DNA from: Desulfosediminicola ganghwensis
GTDB taxonomy: Bacteria; Desulfobacterota; Desulfobulbia; Desulfobulbales; Desulfocapsaceae
NCBI RefSeq assembly: GCF_005116675.2
Contig: NZ_CP050699.1
Coordinates: forward strand, 2,627,001-2,691,000
Length of the DNA stretch: 64,000 bases
Reading direction: 5' to 3'
Part shown: positions 8,845 to 60,118 of the stretch, one piece after another
Layout: each line of letters starts with the position of its first letter
Numbering within the stretch: position 1 is the first letter of the stretch
Position numbers and translations under genes: made by a program
Notes under the pieces: generated by a model
Database searches by the model: none
What the model was told of the DNA's origin: nothing
What the model saw: the letters and a program-made list of their open reading frames with translations, nothing else

Positions 8845-8899
8845 TACTGCAGGTAAAGGCTATAGAGCGAGAGGCTCTGTAGAGCGCCTGAAATTACAT

Positions 8900-8998
8900 A
8901 TAACTCCGAGCTGAAAGGCCTAAATTTCCGTGCTTAAATGCGGAAGAACGGCCTGATGCCGATAGGGTTGCGTTGGAAACGATGTTGCCTTCCGAAAT
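8900..8998 (+). ncRNA. Moco (or tungsten cofactor) riboswitch upstream of moaA
   Basis: The leader just before moaA has the features I associate with the Moco RNA motif (RF01055): an ACTCCGAGC start, GAAAGGCC, a hairpin TTCCG/CGGAA, then GAAGAACGGCCTGATGCC, a GGTTGCGTTGGAAACG segment and TGCCTTCC near the end. AGGCC (8916-8920) can pair with GGCCT (8950-8954). The ribosome site of moaA (AAGGAG) starts six bases downstream, so cofactor binding could block translation. The class call is from memory of the consensus; a covariance-model search would settle it and separate Moco from Tuco types. Confidence 0.75.
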
Positions 8999-9014
8999 TT
9001 GAAAAGGAGTCTGC

Positions 9015-10034
9015 ATGAATGCACGAACCTGCCAAAGCTGTTCCACCGATATTTCGCCATTAATTGATTCATTCGGGCGTAAAGTTACCTATCTCCGTCT
9101 CTCAATCACCGATCGATGTAACCTGCGTTGCCGCTATTGCATGCCGGAAGACGGGGTTAATGTGCTTGACCATAAATCGATACTTTCCTACGAGGAGATG
9201 GAGCGTCTCTCGAGGATTTTCGTAAGTCTGGGGGTCAATAAAATCCGGATTACCGGCGGTGAACCTTTTGTTCGCAAAGGGTGTCTGGAGTTTATGGAGC
9301 GTCTCAAAGAGCAGAGCCCCGGCTTGAGTCTTCACCTGACCACCAACGGTGTTGCAGTCGGGCCGTATTTGCAGGGCTTGAAAGAGTTAGGCATAAAAGG
9401 CATTAACCTGAGCCTTGATACACTTGATGCCGAGCGCTTCAAAGAGATTACCCGCCGCGACAAGCTGGAAAAAGTGCTGGCTGTGTTTCACGAAATCCTC
9501 AGGCTTGAACTGCCCCTGAAAGTGAATGCCGTTGTTCAGGAAGATACCGGTGATGATGAGTTGCTCCGCATGGCGCAGTTGGTTAAGGATTATCCGGTGG
9601 CGATGCGTTTCATCGAGCTGATGCCTTTTTCCGGCGCTGAAGAACATCACGTTATCGAGATGTCCCAGACTCTTGAGTCGCGACTGTTCAAACTCTTCCC
9701 AGGGCTCACCGAGCTTTCCTCAAAACATGTTGAGACCGCCCGAAAATTCTCACTGCCCGGTTATGCCGGAACCCTGGGAATCATCGAGGGTGAATCCCGA
9801 AAATTCTGTGCCACCTGTAATAAACTTAGAGTGACCTCGAGCGGCATGATGAAAAACTGCCTCTACGACCAGGGAGCATTGAACCTGCGCGATCTGTTGC
9901 GGGCCACTCCCGATGACTCAGAAGTTGCCGGTGAAATTCGTAAAGCGGTGAGCAAAAAACTGAAGAACGGCATGGAGGCTGCCAAGCTCAACGGGAATAG
10001 CAGCGAAGATTCCATGGCCTCCATTGGTGGTTGA
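9015..10034 (+). CDS. moaA: GTP 3',8-cyclase MoaA
   Basis: A 339-residue radical-SAM enzyme that begins molybdopterin synthesis by cyclising GTP. The N-terminal cluster motif CNLRCRYC supplies Cys35, Cys39 and Cys42, followed by the RITGGEP SAM-binding segment. The C-terminal second cluster is visible as CATCNK plus a later Cys in MMKNC. The protein ends in Gly-Gly, a feature MoaA needs for catalysis. AAGGAG lies six bases before the ATG. It is preceded by a Moco-type riboswitch and followed by moeA after 67 bases, forming a two-gene cofactor unit. Confidence 0.95.
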   Translation: MNARTCQSCSTDISPLIDSFGRKVTYLRLSITDRCNLRCRYCMPEDGVNVLDHKSILSYEEMERLSRIFVSLGVNKIRITGGEPFVRKGCLEFMERLKEQSPGLSLHLTTNGVAVGPYLQGLKELGIKGINLSLDTLDAERFKEITRRDKLEKVLAVFHEILRLELPLKVNAVVQEDTGDDELLRMAQLVKDYPVAMRFIELMPFSGAEEHHVIEMSQTLESRLFKLFPGLTELSSKHVETARKFSLPGYAGTLGIIEGESRKFCATCNKLRVTSSGMMKNCLYDQGALNLRDLLRATPDDSEVAGEIRKAVSKKLKNGMEAAKLNGNSSEDSMASIGG

Positions 10035-47002: not shown

Positions 47003-47212
47003 ATGAACGAAGTCAAAAAGGAACGGCGGTCATTTCTGAAACATGCTCTGGCGGGAACCGTTGCTGCTACTGCTCTGGCCGCAACGGGTGGAAAGTCTAA
47101 AGCACAAAACTATCCGGGTGAAGGAGGTGCAGAAGGCCCCGGCAAGCATCCGGAAATACTTTACAGGGAGACTGAAGAGTTCAGGGAATATTACAAAAAA
47201 CTCTATTCCTGA
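47003..47212 (+). CDS. Formate dehydrogenase-region TAT-signal protein
   Basis: A 69-residue protein with a twin-arginine motif ERRSFLKHA and hydrophobic segment, then a short tail ending in REYYKKLYS. It matches the small 'formate dehydrogenase region TAT target' proteins (TIGR02811-like) found just before fdhA in epsilon- and deltaproteobacteria. They may help in export or maturation, but the function is unproven. AGGAGG is seven bases before the ATG. It is followed after 57 bases by the catalytic subunit gene. Confidence 0.8.
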   Translation: MNEVKKERRSFLKHALAGTVAATALAATGGKSKAQNYPGEGGAEGPGKHPEILYRETEEFREYYKKLYS

Positions 47213-47269: not shown

Positions 47270-50086
47270 ATGGTTAGAAAATTGACCAGGAAAGTCGCTC
47301 GGGCAGACAGCTCTTCCGTCAGCCCAGGCAGCCCAGGAAAACGTGTAACGCTGAACCCGAAACTGGCCAGACGCTCGTTTCTGAAATTGTCAGCTGCAAC
47401 TGCGGCACTGAGTGGTGCCGCTCTCACCAGCAAGTTGATCCGGCCGGCCTCTGCCGAATCTGCCGCTAACTCCCCATACGAGGGCTCGAAGAAAGTACGG
47501 ACAATCTGCAGTTATTGTGCTGTAGGCTGTGGTGTTACCGCCGAAGTACATAACGGTGTATGGGTCCGTCAGGAGATTGCCCGGGATCACCCCATTTCCA
47601 GGGGGGCTCACTGTTGTAAGGGGGCAGGGGCTATCGAGATGGTCAACGGCGACAAGAGGCTGAAGAATCCTATGAAAAGGGTGAACGGTAAGTGGAAAAC
47701 CCTTTCATGGGATGAAGCTCTTGATGAGATCAGCAGCAAGCTCCTCGATATTCGTGAGAAAGACGGTCCTGATGCCTTACATTTTAACGGATCGGCCAAG
47801 GTTTCCAACGAGATGGCGTATCTGCAGAGAAAATTTGCCGCTTTCTGGGGTTCTAATAACATTGACCACCAGGCTCGAATATGACACTCCACAACGGTGG
47901 CAGGTGTCGCCAATACCTGGGGTTATGGAGCAATGACCAACAGCCTGAACGACATGCGGCATGCGAAATGTCTCTTGTTTGTTGGTTCAAATGCCGCTGA
48001 AGCTCATCCCATTGCAATGCAGCATATTCTGTATGCCAAAGAAAGAAATAATGCCCCTGTTATCGTGGTTGATCCACGCCGCACCAAGCTGGCAGCCAAG
48101 GCTACCGACTATCTCCGCATTCGTCCGGGTACCGATACAGCCCTGATAATGGGGTTGGTCAATGTTATTATCGCTAATGGCTGGGAGGACAAGGAATTTA
48201 TACGCACCAGAGTCGCAGGCTACGAGGAGATGAAGGAGGTCGCAGCGCATTATACTCCGGAGGTGGTGGAGGATATTACAGGTGTTCCGGCAGAAGAAGT
48301 AACACGGGTGGCGCGGCTCCTTGCCCGCAACAGGCCGGGTAGTCTGACCTGGTGTCTGGGTGGGACTCAGCACTCGATCGGATCATCCATGACCCGTTCA
48401 TTTTCTATACTGCAGTTGATACTGGGTAACATGGGTAAATCTGGCGGTGGTACGAACATTTTCCGTGGCCATGACAATGTGCAGGGCGCAACGGATATGT
48501 GTGTGCTCCCGGATAATCTGCCGGCGTATTACGGTCTCAGTGATACTTCATGGCAGCACTGGTGCAGGGTGTGGGATGTCGATTATGATTACATCGTTTC
48601 TAAATTCCCCGCCAAAGAGTGGATGAACAAAAGGGGGTTCACACTCTCAAGGTGGTATGACGGTGTTTTAGCCGATGGGGACAAGATTCATCAGGACACT
48701 CCCATAAAGGCACTTTTGCAGTGGGGGTGCGGCTCAAACTCAAACTCACAATATGCCAGGGTCAAGAAGGCATATGATACCCTGGAACTCCTGGTCATCG
48801 TTGACCTCTTTCCCACCATGGGGGCGGTGCTTGGTGAAAAGGATAACGTCTATCTGCTGCCGGCTGCCTCCCAGTATGAGACCAGCGGCAGTGTAACCTC
48901 GACCTCCCGGCAGCTCCAGTGGCGCAATAAAGTGGTCGATCCTGTCCATAACTGTCGCGATGATTATACGATCATGGCTGGTCTGGTGGAGCGCCTCGGT
49001 TTTGCAGATGAATTTTACAAAAACATCAAAGAGATTCCGGAAGATGTCACCAGAGAGCTGAACAAGGGGGCCCTGACCATTGGTTATAACGGCCAGACTC
49101 CGGAACGGCTGAAAAAACACTCTGAGAATTGGCATAGCTTCGATATCGATACCCTGGAGGCCATTGGCGGTCCCTGTGACGGGGAATACTATGGCCTGCC
49201 GTGGCCCTGCTGGACCGAGGAGCATCCCGGTACACCTATTCTCTATGATATCAGTAAACCCGTAGCACGAGGCGGGTTACCATTTAGAAATCGTTTCGGC
49301 CTGGAGAAGACGTATGATTCAAGCGGCCGAACCGAAAATCAGCTTGCCGCGGCCGGCGTCTTTAACCCGGGTTGTGAAGTGAGAGGCGGCTATCCTGAGT
49401 TCTCAGAAGTGGTAGCGGGCACCAACTGGAAGACTGATATTTCCCAGAAGACCATCAAGGAAGCGATCAGGAGGGGCATGGCGCCATTCGGCAATGCCCG
49501 CGCCCGCTGTGTGGTCTGGGATTTCCCGGATCAGGTACCTATCCATCGTGAGCCGCTGCATTCGCCACGACCTGACCTGATCAAAAAGTATCCAACCTAT
49601 GAGGATAAGCCAAATCATTTCAGGATAGATACCCGCTATGCCAGTGAGCAGAAACCTGAGATTGTCGAGAAATTTCCATATGTGTTGACCACGGGGCGTG
49701 TGGTTGAGCATATGGGGGCAGGTGCAGAGAGCCGCTCGAACAAATATCTCTCGGAACTGCAGCCGGAAATGTATGCTGAAATCCATCCACGGCTGGCCGG
49801 TAATCTCGGCATACGCGATGGCAAGATGATGTGGATCGAGTCATATGAAGGCAGCAGGATCAAGGTAAAAGCCCTGTATACCGAGCGGGTCGACGAAAAT
49901 ACCATCTTTATGCCGTTTCACTTTGGTGGCCTCTTTATGGGTGAGTCGCTGCTGGATAAATATCCGGAAGGGAATGAACCAATTATCATTGGTGAACCGG
50001 CGAATCTGGTTGTTGGCTATGGGTACGACATCATAACCCAGATTCAGTCCACAAAGGATGGGCTTTGTAATGTTACCAAAGCATAG
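47270..50086 (+). CDS. fdhA: Formate dehydrogenase catalytic subunit, selenocysteine-containing
   Basis: A 938-residue molybdenum/tungsten bis-pterin enzyme oxidising formate to CO2 in the periplasm. The N-terminus carries a TAT signal (ARRSFLKLS). A 4Fe-4S motif follows, CSYCAVGC and a later Cys in HCCKG. TGA at 47882-47884 (codon 205) is read as selenocysteine: the flanking residues QARI-U-HSTTVAGVANTWG are the classic FdhG active site. A SECIS hairpin with an AGGU loop sits where it does in E. coli fdn/fdh. The pterin domains continue to a normal C-terminus. I use ATG 47270 with GGGAG nine bases upstream; an in-frame TTG at 47264 is too close to that site. It is cotranscribed with the beta and gamma subunits. 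Confidence 0.93.
47896..47911 (+). promoter_or_regulatory. SECIS hairpin of fdhA
   Basis: GGTGGC (47896-47901) pairs with GTCGCC (47906-47911) leaving loop AGGT. The loop starts 18 bases after the UGA, the same offset as the E. coli formate dehydrogenase SECIS, and contains the GGU needed by SelB. Confidence 0.85.
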
Positions 50087-50122: not shown

Positions 50123-50710
50123 ATGGCAACAATGAAGTTCTTATGTGACGTCGATCGCTGTATAGATTGCGGCGGCTGTGTTGTGGCCTGCAAGGAAGGG
50201 CACCATATTCCGGTTGGCATCAACAGGCGCCGGGTAATTACCCTGGATTCGGGGAAACCTGGTGAGAAATCAATTTCGGTCTCCTGCATGCATTGAGCTG
50301 ATGCGCCTTGCATCGCTGTGTGTCCGGTGGACGCCATCTACGAACGTGAAGACGGAATTGTACTGGTAAGCAAACCAACGTGCATTGGTTGCGGATACTG
50401 CTTCATGGCCTGTCCTTTTGGTGCCCCGCAGTTTCCTGAAGGTGCAGTGTTCGGTGCCCGGGGAGCTATGGACAAGTGCACCTTTTGTGCCGGCGGGCCT
50501 GAAGAGACCTTCAGCAAGAAAGAAGAAAAACTCTACGGGCAGAACCGCATTGCCGAAGGTAAGCCGCCACTCTGCTCTGCCATGTGCGCGACCATGGCCC
50601 TGTTGGCAGGAGACGCTGATATCGTTGCGGATGTGTATCGGGAACGTGTCTTCAAACGCGGTTCCGGTGCAAATGCCTGGGGCTGGGACAGGGCCTATAA
50701 AAGAAAATAA
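50123..50710 (+). CDS. fdhB: Formate dehydrogenase iron-sulfur subunit with an in-frame UGA (putative selenocysteine)
   Basis: A 195-residue ferredoxin-like subunit with four 4Fe-4S sites that passes electrons from the catalytic subunit to cytochrome b. Cluster motifs in order: CIDCGGCVVAC, CMH-U-ADAPCIAVCP, CIGCGYCFMACP, and CTFC with a later CSAMC. Codon 58 is TGA (50294-50296) exactly where the family has Cys (CMHCxDAPC). The frame is otherwise intact and no shift is needed. A candidate SECIS lies at 50320-50334. GGAGG precedes ATG 50123. It follows fdhA by 36 bases. If UGA is not recoded, the protein would stop at 57 residues and the complex could not work, so recoding, sequencing error and inactivation remain alternatives. 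Confidence 0.8.
50320..50334 (+). promoter_or_regulatory. Candidate SECIS hairpin of fdhB
   Basis: GTGTCC (50320-50325) pairs with GGACGC (50329-50334) with one GU, leaving loop GGT. The loop begins 30 bases after the UGA, inside the range accepted for bacterial SECIS elements. A second hairpin, GATGC/GCATC (50300-50304 with 50310-50314), lies closer to the UGA and could compete. Confidence 0.5.
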
Positions 50711-50817: not shown

Positions 50818-51693
50818 ATGCGACGCGCCATTTCAATATCGACCCTGGTCGTGGGTGTTCTAATGATCAGTTTTGTCCTGGGAACGAAAATTTCCGGCGC
50901 TAATCCCCTGGCGGTTCTGTTTCCAGGCTCATCAGCAGATTATTTCAGGGAACTGATGAAATATATTGCCGGGGACTGGCAGCAGTACGGGGCCTTGTTT
51001 ACCAATGTCATACTCGATATTCTGCGCTATGTGTTTTTTGCGGTAATCACCTTGGTTCCCCTGGCGTTTCTGGGGCACTACCTGCTGGTTGGGCCGATGG
51101 AATTTCCCCATGAGCCGAAAGTGCTGATCTTTCCTCCCCTGTGCCGTAAGATTCATATGGTGGCTGCGGTTACTTTCAGTATTCTGACTATTACCGGTTT
51201 GCTCATAATTTTCGGAAGCTTTCTGGGAGGAGGCTTCTTTATTCGCATTTGCCGTTATTTTCATATTGGGGCGGCGATTATTTTCACAGTTACTGCCCCA
51301 ATGATGTTTGCTGTCTGGATAAAGGATATGATGCCGGCACTGCATGACCTGAAATGGGTAATTATCATGGGTGGGTACCTGAGCAAGGACAAGAAACCGG
51401 TCCCGGCAGGGAAGTTCAATGCAGGCCAGAAGATGTGGTTCTGGGGTTCCACTGTCGGTGGCGTGGTAATGGCGTATACCGGGTATATAATCTGGTCATT
51501 CGGGGCAAGCCTTGATACGGTTCGCATCTACACGCTTATTCACAACGTTCTCGGCGCGTTCTTGATATCTGTTTTTCTAACTCATCTTTACATGACGATT
51601 TTTGCCATCAAGGGGGCTGTGCATTCAATTACTACAGGTTACAGATCCAAGGCCGAGCTCGATTTATTGCATAGCTTGTATAAGTATGAATAG
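50818..51693 (+). CDS. fdhC: Formate dehydrogenase cytochrome b subunit
   Basis: A 291-residue inner-membrane protein of the FdnI/cytochrome b556 family. A signal-like N-terminal helix precedes a periplasmic stretch of about 55 residues, then four helices with histidines placed to bind heme b: KIHM, RYFHIGAA and IHNVLGAF/THLYM. It takes electrons from the iron-sulfur subunit and passes them to quinone. GGAGGG precedes the ATG. It ends the fdh operon. Confidence 0.88.
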   Translation: MRRAISISTLVVGVLMISFVLGTKISGANPLAVLFPGSSADYFRELMKYIAGDWQQYGALFTNVILDILRYVFFAVITLVPLAFLGHYLLVGPMEFPHEPKVLIFPPLCRKIHMVAAVTFSILTITGLLIIFGSFLGGGFFIRICRYFHIGAAIIFTVTAPMMFAVWIKDMMPALHDLKWVIIMGGYLSKDKKPVPAGKFNAGQKMWFWGSTVGGVVMAYTGYIIWSFGASLDTVRIYTLIHNVLGAFLISVFLTHLYMTIFAIKGAVHSITTGYRSKAELDLLHSLYKYE

Positions 51694-56065: not shown

Positions 56066-56917
56066 ACAATAACTGCCAGGTTTCCACCGAATCACCCTCT
56101 CTATATAGCTTTTACAGAAAAGGATCTTTGTACCCGTTGTGGAACCTGTGTTGGTGTATGTCCCAATGGTGCTTTGAGCCTCGATAAGGACAACTATCCT
56201 GAAATCGATCTCGACAATTGCGTACAATGTGGACTTTGTGCCAAGGTTTGTGCGGGCGGCAGTGTAAATTTTGCAGAACTGTCTGAGATAACCTTTGGCC
56301 ATAAAGAAGCAACTATAGATTTTGACAGCCATTTTCTGCAGTCGACTATTGGTTATGCGACCGATGAAAAACTCAGGACCGGTGGAGCCAGTGGCGGCGT
56401 AGTATCCGCCCTCTTGTGGAACATGCAGAAAGAGGGAACGATTGATGGTTGTATCGTTACCAGGATGAGTCGCGAAAATCCATGCCGCGGGGAATTATAT
56501 ATCGCGAAAGGTTACGATGAGATACGGCAGAGCCAGCAGTCAAAATATGTTGTAACCCCGGTTAATTCATTGTTGGCAAAATTACGCAATTTAACGGGTC
56601 GCTATGCTATTGTCGCCTTGCCCTGTCAGGTGCATGGCCTCCGGCTGCTTTAGCGTGAAGTTCCGGCCTTGTTTAAAAAAAATAATGTAATTATTGGGCT
56701 ACATTGCGCTACCACCCTGGAACCCAGTTGCGACAGAAAGGCTCCTCAAACTGTCTCTGCGGAAAAAATAAAGGAAAGGATAGATTCCTTGCTTATGAAG
56801 CTGGGGAAAAAGAAAGTAGTTCGTTTACCTTTATGGAAATTCCTGTCTTCTGATTTTAGGGTGCCCTTGATCCGTATCAGACAGTCTTTAAAACGGCGAC
56901 GCTTCAAGCTTTTGTAA
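56066..56917 (+). pseudogene. Remnant of an FrhB-type coenzyme F420 hydrogenase/dehydrogenase beta family gene
   Basis: The frame opens after a TGA at 56063 but has no usable start codon before the domain begins. It encodes two ferredoxin motifs, CTRCGTCVGVCP and CVQCGLCAKVC, then the FrhB N- and C-domain segments RTGGASGGVVSALLW and ALPCQVHGLRLL. A TAG (56651-56653) interrupts it; the frame continues in phase with REVPALF and GLHCATTLEPS. The last 60 codons no longer look like the family, suggesting a deletion or rearrangement. FrhB-type proteins move electrons between ferredoxin and flavin-bound partners and are frequently in polysaccharide or hydrogenase loci. Loss of both ends makes it a decayed gene. 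Confidence 0.75.
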
Positions 56918-59846: not shown

Positions 59847-59861
59847 TGTTCAATATAATTT

Positions 59862-59936
59862 GCAAGGGGTGGCTGATAAGCCTGAGATGATACCCTTTGA
59901 ACCTGATCTGGTTAACGCCAGCGTAGGGATGCACGG
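59862..59936 (+). ncRNA. TPP riboswitch (THI element)
   Basis: The consensus is unmistakable: AAGGGGTGGC, CTGAGATGATACCCTT, GAACCTGATCTGGTTAACGC and CAGCGTAGGGA in the correct order. It lies 180 bases upstream of thiM and should repress the operon when thiamine diphosphate is abundant. Confidence 0.96.
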
Positions 59937-60118
59937 ATGATTGTTGTATTCATATCAGATTCTTCATCGGTTTTCGGCTGAGCAATCCCGCTCAGACATC
60001 TCTTTTTCTGTTGCCTCCTGTTTTCATTTTACGTGCCTGTAAACACCAGATTGTCATGGGCGTTTGCTGTGCAGATATTGCCAGCTCCAACGGCAATAAT
60101 TTACCGAGGAGGGAACCA

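Follow-up and report, generated by a model that had tools for sequence, protein, structure and literature searches.

Is the TGA inside fdhB, the gene for the iron-sulfur subunit of a formate dehydrogenase in Desulfosediminicola ganghwensis (a sulfate reducer living in mud), a codon for selenocysteine (Sec), or is it the trace of a recent inactivation or of a wrong base in the assembly? The gene lies in a stretch of 64,000 nucleotides, hereafter the window, taken from a genome of 5,653,142 bases in a single contig. We lean, with modest confidence, towards a decoding of this UGA58, at least partly, as Sec, and favour this over a nonsense codon and over an error. We do so because tRNA-Sec and SelB are present and an unusually strong stem stands at the right place; our doubts come from the lack of a second UGA case, from a spare Cys copy of the gene and from the omission of the family from a 2026 inventory of selenoproteins.

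The reading frame runs from ATG to TAA with the TGA as its sole internal stop, and translation bears out what the initial annotation had claimed, i.e. that codon 58 falls on the second Cys of a cluster motif and that the frame is intact on both sides. The surroundings read ...SISVSCMH*ADAPCIAVCPVDAIY..., or C55-x2-U58-x4-C63-x3-C67-P, the TGA taking the place of the second Cys in C-x2-C-x4-C-x3-CP. With a Cys put at residue 58, the product scores 313.9 bits against NCBIfam NF038355 ("formate dehydrogenase FDH3 subunit beta", cut-off 240); it lies above the cut-off of this family but departs from it in that residue 58 is encoded by UGA and not by Cys. It differs in the same way from the closest solved chain, 9vap_B (E 5e-86), which has Cys at the aligned position. 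The FDH3 beta fold contains four four-Cys cluster motifs; they can be recognised by eye in FdhB, UGA58 standing for one of the Cys, and their assignment to individual clusters is presumed here from general knowledge. Judging from the conserved motif and from this knowledge, residue 58 is probably a cluster ligand.

Table 1. Coordinates of the fdh operon and of its UGA-associated elements, numbered from the first base of the window
Feature	Coordinates	Strand	Remarks
Small protein, operon gene 1	47003..47212	+	69 aa; Tat-like N-terminus
fdhA, formate dehydrogenase catalytic subunit	47270..50086	+	938 aa through one UGA; PF00384, PF01568, PF04879
fdhA UGA, codon 205	47882..47884	+	classical Sec position
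fdhA SECIS-type hairpin, GGUGGC-AGGU-GUCGCC	47896..47911	+	AGGU loop 17 nt past UGA
fdhB, FDH3-type beta (iron-sulfur) subunit	50123..50710	+	195 aa with UGA58 read; NF038355 match
In-frame TGA, fdhB codon 58	50294..50296	+	second Cys of second cluster motif
First hairpin, immediately past UGA58	50296..50317	+	large share of total folding energy
Candidate SECIS hairpin, GUGUCC-GGU-GGACGC	50318..50335	+	loop 50326-50328; bare stem 50320-50334
fdhC, cytochrome b subunit	50818..51693	+	intact; PF01292

The operon in which fdhB lies (Table 1) begins with a gene for a small protein containing RRSFLKHALAG, which we take to be a Tat-like motif; it has matches at six of the eight FDH3 loci compared (37-42% identity), and a Pfam search with the gene, a slightly longer start being used, gave no match. 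The fdhA product aligns over almost its full length at all eight of these loci, and scores 516 bits against TIGR01591, under the cut-off of 666. That this catalytic subunit uses UGA, as had been claimed, is confirmed at residue 205, followed by one broadly similar to the fdhB hairpin (bare stem -7.1 kcal/mol, or -13.7 with flanking pairs included), and a single stop codon occurs at the corresponding place in seven of the eight loci. The eighth, from UBA2775 (L039), has an FdhA that aligns over nearly its whole length with no stop codon, so that its catalytic subunit is without a Sec codon.

The genome carries a second FDH3 operon (L118), again with a UGA in fdhA, whose fdhB is of the Cys type (positions 5207317-5207901 of the contig); the two FdhB proteins are 84% identical. 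In the tree, the L118 copy clusters with copies from other genomes of the genus (98/84), whereas that of the window clusters with a copy from another genus of the family (L022; 98/89). By this placement, beside L022 and apart from the copies of the genus, the operon of the window is an extra copy. Its proteins depart from conserved columns more often than most: 15 departures for FdhA (median 2; rank 3 of 57), three for FdhB (rank 4 of 69) and two for FdhC (rank 4 of 52). This excess may reflect either relaxed selection or specialisation.

We collected 72 distinct full-length FdhB sequences, including that of the window, with identities of at least 74%; the codon for residue 58 is TGT in 42 of them, TGC in 29 and TGA in that of the window alone, so that Cys is found in 71 of the 71 others and UGA in none. 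Nine further relatives, mostly more distant, all have Cys as well. A first set of loci yielded 121 alignments that span the residue, with duplicates and distant paralogues among them; the codon is TGT in 62, TGC in 58 and TGA in one. A search at the level of the class found FdhB matches (1e-60) in 66 of 257 genomes. Besides that of the window, two matches bear a TGA (G032 and G192), and both read Cys at residue 58; the internal stops of distant matches in G018, G024, G032, G191 and G192 were likewise dismissed, lying off residue 58, where these sequences have Cys. The DNA pattern CxHUxxxPC, scanned for in 395 genomes of the phylum, has 131 occurrences, spread over 102 genomes (19 for the reversed control pattern); none of the 48 other places that were looked at in context, out of 130, lies within a ferredoxin-like frame (30 of these had stored loci and 18 were picked by eye). 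Among the relatives examined, UGA58 is thus shared with no other species. The initial annotation would have counted such a result, joined to a lack of full-length FdhB, against its own proposal, and this half of its reservation has proved apt. The ratio dN/dS was uninformative, synonymous sites being saturated in the pairs that involve fdhB of the window.

One relative has a stop of its own: in the FdhB gene of G021 (L029/L073), codon 48 is TAG, where at least 97% of the others have Glu, and the rest of the frame is open.

The hairpin with a GGU loop described in the initial annotation is there, where it was said to be: pairing begins 24 nt past the T of the TGA, and the distance from UGA to loop is 29 nt. 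The bSECIS model, as given in the available text of a 2026 review (PMC13188914), asks for a loop of 3-9 nt with a G in position 1 or 2, a stem of 4-16 bp, a spacing of 16-37 nt from the UGA and an energy of -7.5 kcal/mol or lower. The fdhB hairpin conforms to it in its loop (both size and G), in its stem of 6 bp and in its spacing; in energy, the bare stem falls short (-6.4), whereas the value that includes flanking pairs passes the line (-8.9). The hairpin that directly follows the UGA is nearer to it than the model permits.

How unusual the structure is depends on how it is measured, and we used three measures, namely the bare stem, the hairpin with pairs in its 18-nt flanks, and the total fold of 48 nt. 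For the bare stem, -6.4 is reached by 0.8% of synonymous nulls built from orthologue codons and by 1.1% of those built from the codon usage of the genome; it is reached in four of the 71 Cys orthologues, and among 1500 Cys codons sampled from the genome 3.9% attain it (2.3% attain -7.5). Ten UGA sites of the Sec type in this genome, whose genes we named by eye, served as a comparison; they belong to Prx, two rhodaneses, two HdrA, FrhD, three FdhA and a CTP-synthase-related protein. Nine of these sites came from a coding-score scan and the tenth (FdhA2) from L118; nine of the ten reach -6.4 and five reach -7.5. The looser measure, with flanking pairs, is far more permissive: 28% and 21% of the synonymous nulls equal or exceed the -8.9 of fdhB, and the -7.5 line is passed by 45% of nulls, by 25% of the 1500 Cys codons and 23% of a set of 150, and by nine of the ten Sec-type sites. 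In short, the bare stem of fdhB is unusually strong, and by the looser measure there is nothing special about it.

Folded as a whole, the 48 nt from the UGA reach -17.0, where the nulls average about -11 (P 0.007-0.01); among 23 overlapping segments along fdhB no other has so low a P, and P is 0.02 or less at this place in three of the 71 Cys orthologues. This signal weakens with length (P 0.07 at 13 codons and 0.128 at 20), and most of it is contributed by the first hairpin. Moreover, the lowest P at the ten Sec-type sites is 0.025; since none of them scores as low as fdhB, the measure is atypical of Sec sites. The P of about 0.01 for the bare stem belongs to one measure out of three and is uncorrected for that choice; with the same proviso, the hairpin evidence as a whole gives moderate support to a SECIS element.

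The initial annotation had argued from fdhA that the Sec machinery must exist, and rightly: the genome contains a tRNA-Sec (75.4 bits, cut-off 47) and SelB (384.7 bits, cut-off 242). It had also appealed to proteins of the HdrA type, in which, it said, Sec is known as a cluster ligand. This precedent finds indirect support, in that HdrA-like and FrhD-like genes with UGA (named by eye) occur in this genome, and that the 2026 review, in its available text, lists HdrA with a CxxU motif (PMC13188914). FdhB would resemble, in having Sec within an iron-sulfur protein, the HdrA (CxxU), FrhD/MvhD (CxxU), NF005503 (an Fe-S cluster domain protein, UxxC) and HgcB (the mercury methylation ferredoxin) that appear there (PMC13188914). 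According to the part of the deep-Sep paper available to us, strain IMCC35004 of D. ganghwensis has 40 known and five new selenoprotein genes (PMC12013277). We tried to use scans of coding scores for interrupted genes as a count of our own and gave this up; the scans are too unspecific, and one missed both fdhA and fdhB, another fdhB.

The Sec claim for fdhB is not new: it has been known since 2025 as an independent published prediction. In its Table 3, the deep-Sep paper predicts the FDH3 beta subunit of D. ganghwensis IMCC35004 as a selenoprotein, and gives "No" for conservation of the UGA in other species (PMC12013277). Strain and family are the same as here, and so is the situation reported in that entry, with Cys homologues in existence and no TGA homologue elsewhere (PMC12013277). 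The gene must be fdhB of the window, since of the two FDH3 beta genes that we found in this genome it alone has a TGA. The published prediction, as far as its available text goes, comes with a bSECISearch structure and lacks the calibrations presented above (PMC12013277). We did not accept the deep-Sep score itself as strong support for Sec; the negatives of the method, as its available text describes them, are stretches past normal stop codons (PMC12013277), which exclude nonsense codons inside intact genes, and the method may therefore give a positive call for a nonsense codon in an otherwise intact gene. Of the nine deep-Sep families, the 2026 inventory, in the portion available, includes eight (its reference 65) and the FDH3 beta subunit is absent (PMC13188914); the main text of this review contains none of the words FDH3, HybA and ganghwensis, and we saw no reason there for the omission (PMC13188914). 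Neither do the available texts of PMC9312934 and PMC8318568 name FdhB. Looking for later publications brought up the deep-Sep paper and this review alone, and we found no experiment on Sec in FdhB of D. ganghwensis in the literature searched. To call fdhB a candidate second selenoprotein of its operon, as the initial annotation did, was thus reasonable and has a counterpart in print; it is not established, with UGA58 seen in no relative and a mutation as a serious rival.

That mutation would be a recent change of TGC or TGT to TGA which inactivated fdhB in a dispensable second operon, with a stop after 57 residues and the other copy functioning. We consider this quite possible, if less probable than decoding. 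The intact Cys copy elsewhere in the genome would make the loss bearable, the operon of the window has the excess of departures described above, an FrhB-like pseudogene with a TAG lies 6 kb downstream of fdhB, and G021, one of the 71 relatives, has its own stop in the same gene. Furthermore, the match between UGA and Cys, taken alone, is weak evidence when the gene has as many as 17 Cys codons: of the 69 single-step changes that create a stop in fdhB, 26 give TGA, and 17 of these 26 start from Cys. In long ORFs (851 kb sample), changes from Cys to TGA account for 4% of all nonsense routes. Clean nonsense codons do exist in this genome: four domain families, with 324 copies listed, contain one, a TAA in a response regulator (PF00005 0/96, with 150 of 188 candidates scored; PF00072 1/101; PF02518 0/72; PF00528 0/55); a similar search with Fer4_7 (no stop in 103 copies, from 150 scored candidates out of 269) was uninformative and was set aside. 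A rough estimate takes one stop per about 42,000 positions in these domains, supposes 1.6 million coding codons in the genome, and multiplies by the 4% of Cys-to-TGA routes and by the frequency of chance hairpins, from 4% with the bare stem up to 25% with the loose model; it comes to 0.06 to 0.4 chance look-alikes per genome and is uncertain by a factor of more than ten. Three points speak against a mutation: the operon is otherwise intact, which would require a young lesion; the stem at the SECIS distance is stronger than in 67 of the 71 Cys orthologues; and the number of selenoproteins in the genome is unusually high.

The other explanations weigh much less. A sequencing or assembly error hiding a TGC or TGT is very unlikely; it is true that a single base is at issue and that the species is represented by one strain in the data used here, but the IMCC35004 genome, from the available text of its description, is a hybrid of Illumina MiSeq and Nanopore data assembled with Unicycler (PMC8497536), which makes a plain error less likely, and mismapping from a paralogue whose protein is merely 84% identical would be improbable as well. 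Of the three outcomes left by the initial annotation (a selenolate ligand, an error or a mutation), the mutation therefore keeps its weight and the error loses much of it. Least probable of all is that the gene works as separate halves, a stub of 57 aa and a part of 130 aa, or that the UGA is read as another amino acid. An ORF of 130 codons does open with GTG at 50318, yet we saw by eye no sequence resembling a ribosome-binding site upstream of it, and a split between two ligands of a single cluster would be odd.

Under the favoured decoding as Sec, SelB and tRNA-Sec would insert Sec at UGA58 with the aid of the GGU-loop hairpin, read-through would yield a full-length FDH3 beta subunit, and one of the [4Fe-4S] clusters along the electron wire would have a selenolate in place of a thiolate ligand. 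The Cys-to-Sec change would then be specific to this species and would have arisen in the extra copy of an operon, in a lineage whose selenoprotein set is among the largest known. The fuller proposal of a nascent, species-specific selenoprotein, in which a Sec ligand of a [4Fe-4S] cluster accompanies a Sec-containing catalytic subunit in an extra operon copy with a strong stem, seems to us close to an even bet; insertion of Sec and any functional benefit of it are conjectured from the genome.

Either answer would be instructive. If Sec is inserted, selenium would be found at a pure electron-transfer cluster, and the Cys copy that the cell also carries, 84% identical, would provide a natural control for the effect of a selenolate on cluster potential. 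If the codon is a nonsense mutation, a lone match of UGA with Cys in a Cys-rich protein of the ferredoxin type would have to be regarded as weak evidence, since most one-step routes to TGA in such genes begin at Cys, and this bears on the automatic calling of selenoproteins.

Some observations were made in passing. The pseudogene downstream of fdhB, of the FrhB/FdhB type (coenzyme F420 hydrogenase beta), extends over about 56102-56915 of the window, with its in-frame TAG at 56651-56653; PF04422 matches before the TAG and PF04432 across it, and the family match stops about 29 codons past it. Elsewhere in the genome, a response regulator domain (L312, at G000:C1:3327294) contains an in-frame TAA followed by an open frame of 596 codons. 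An Rfam scan of the window gave no match at the fdh operon, and found, above the Rfam gathering scores, a Mo cofactor riboswitch at 8892-9025 and a TPP riboswitch at 59855-59946.
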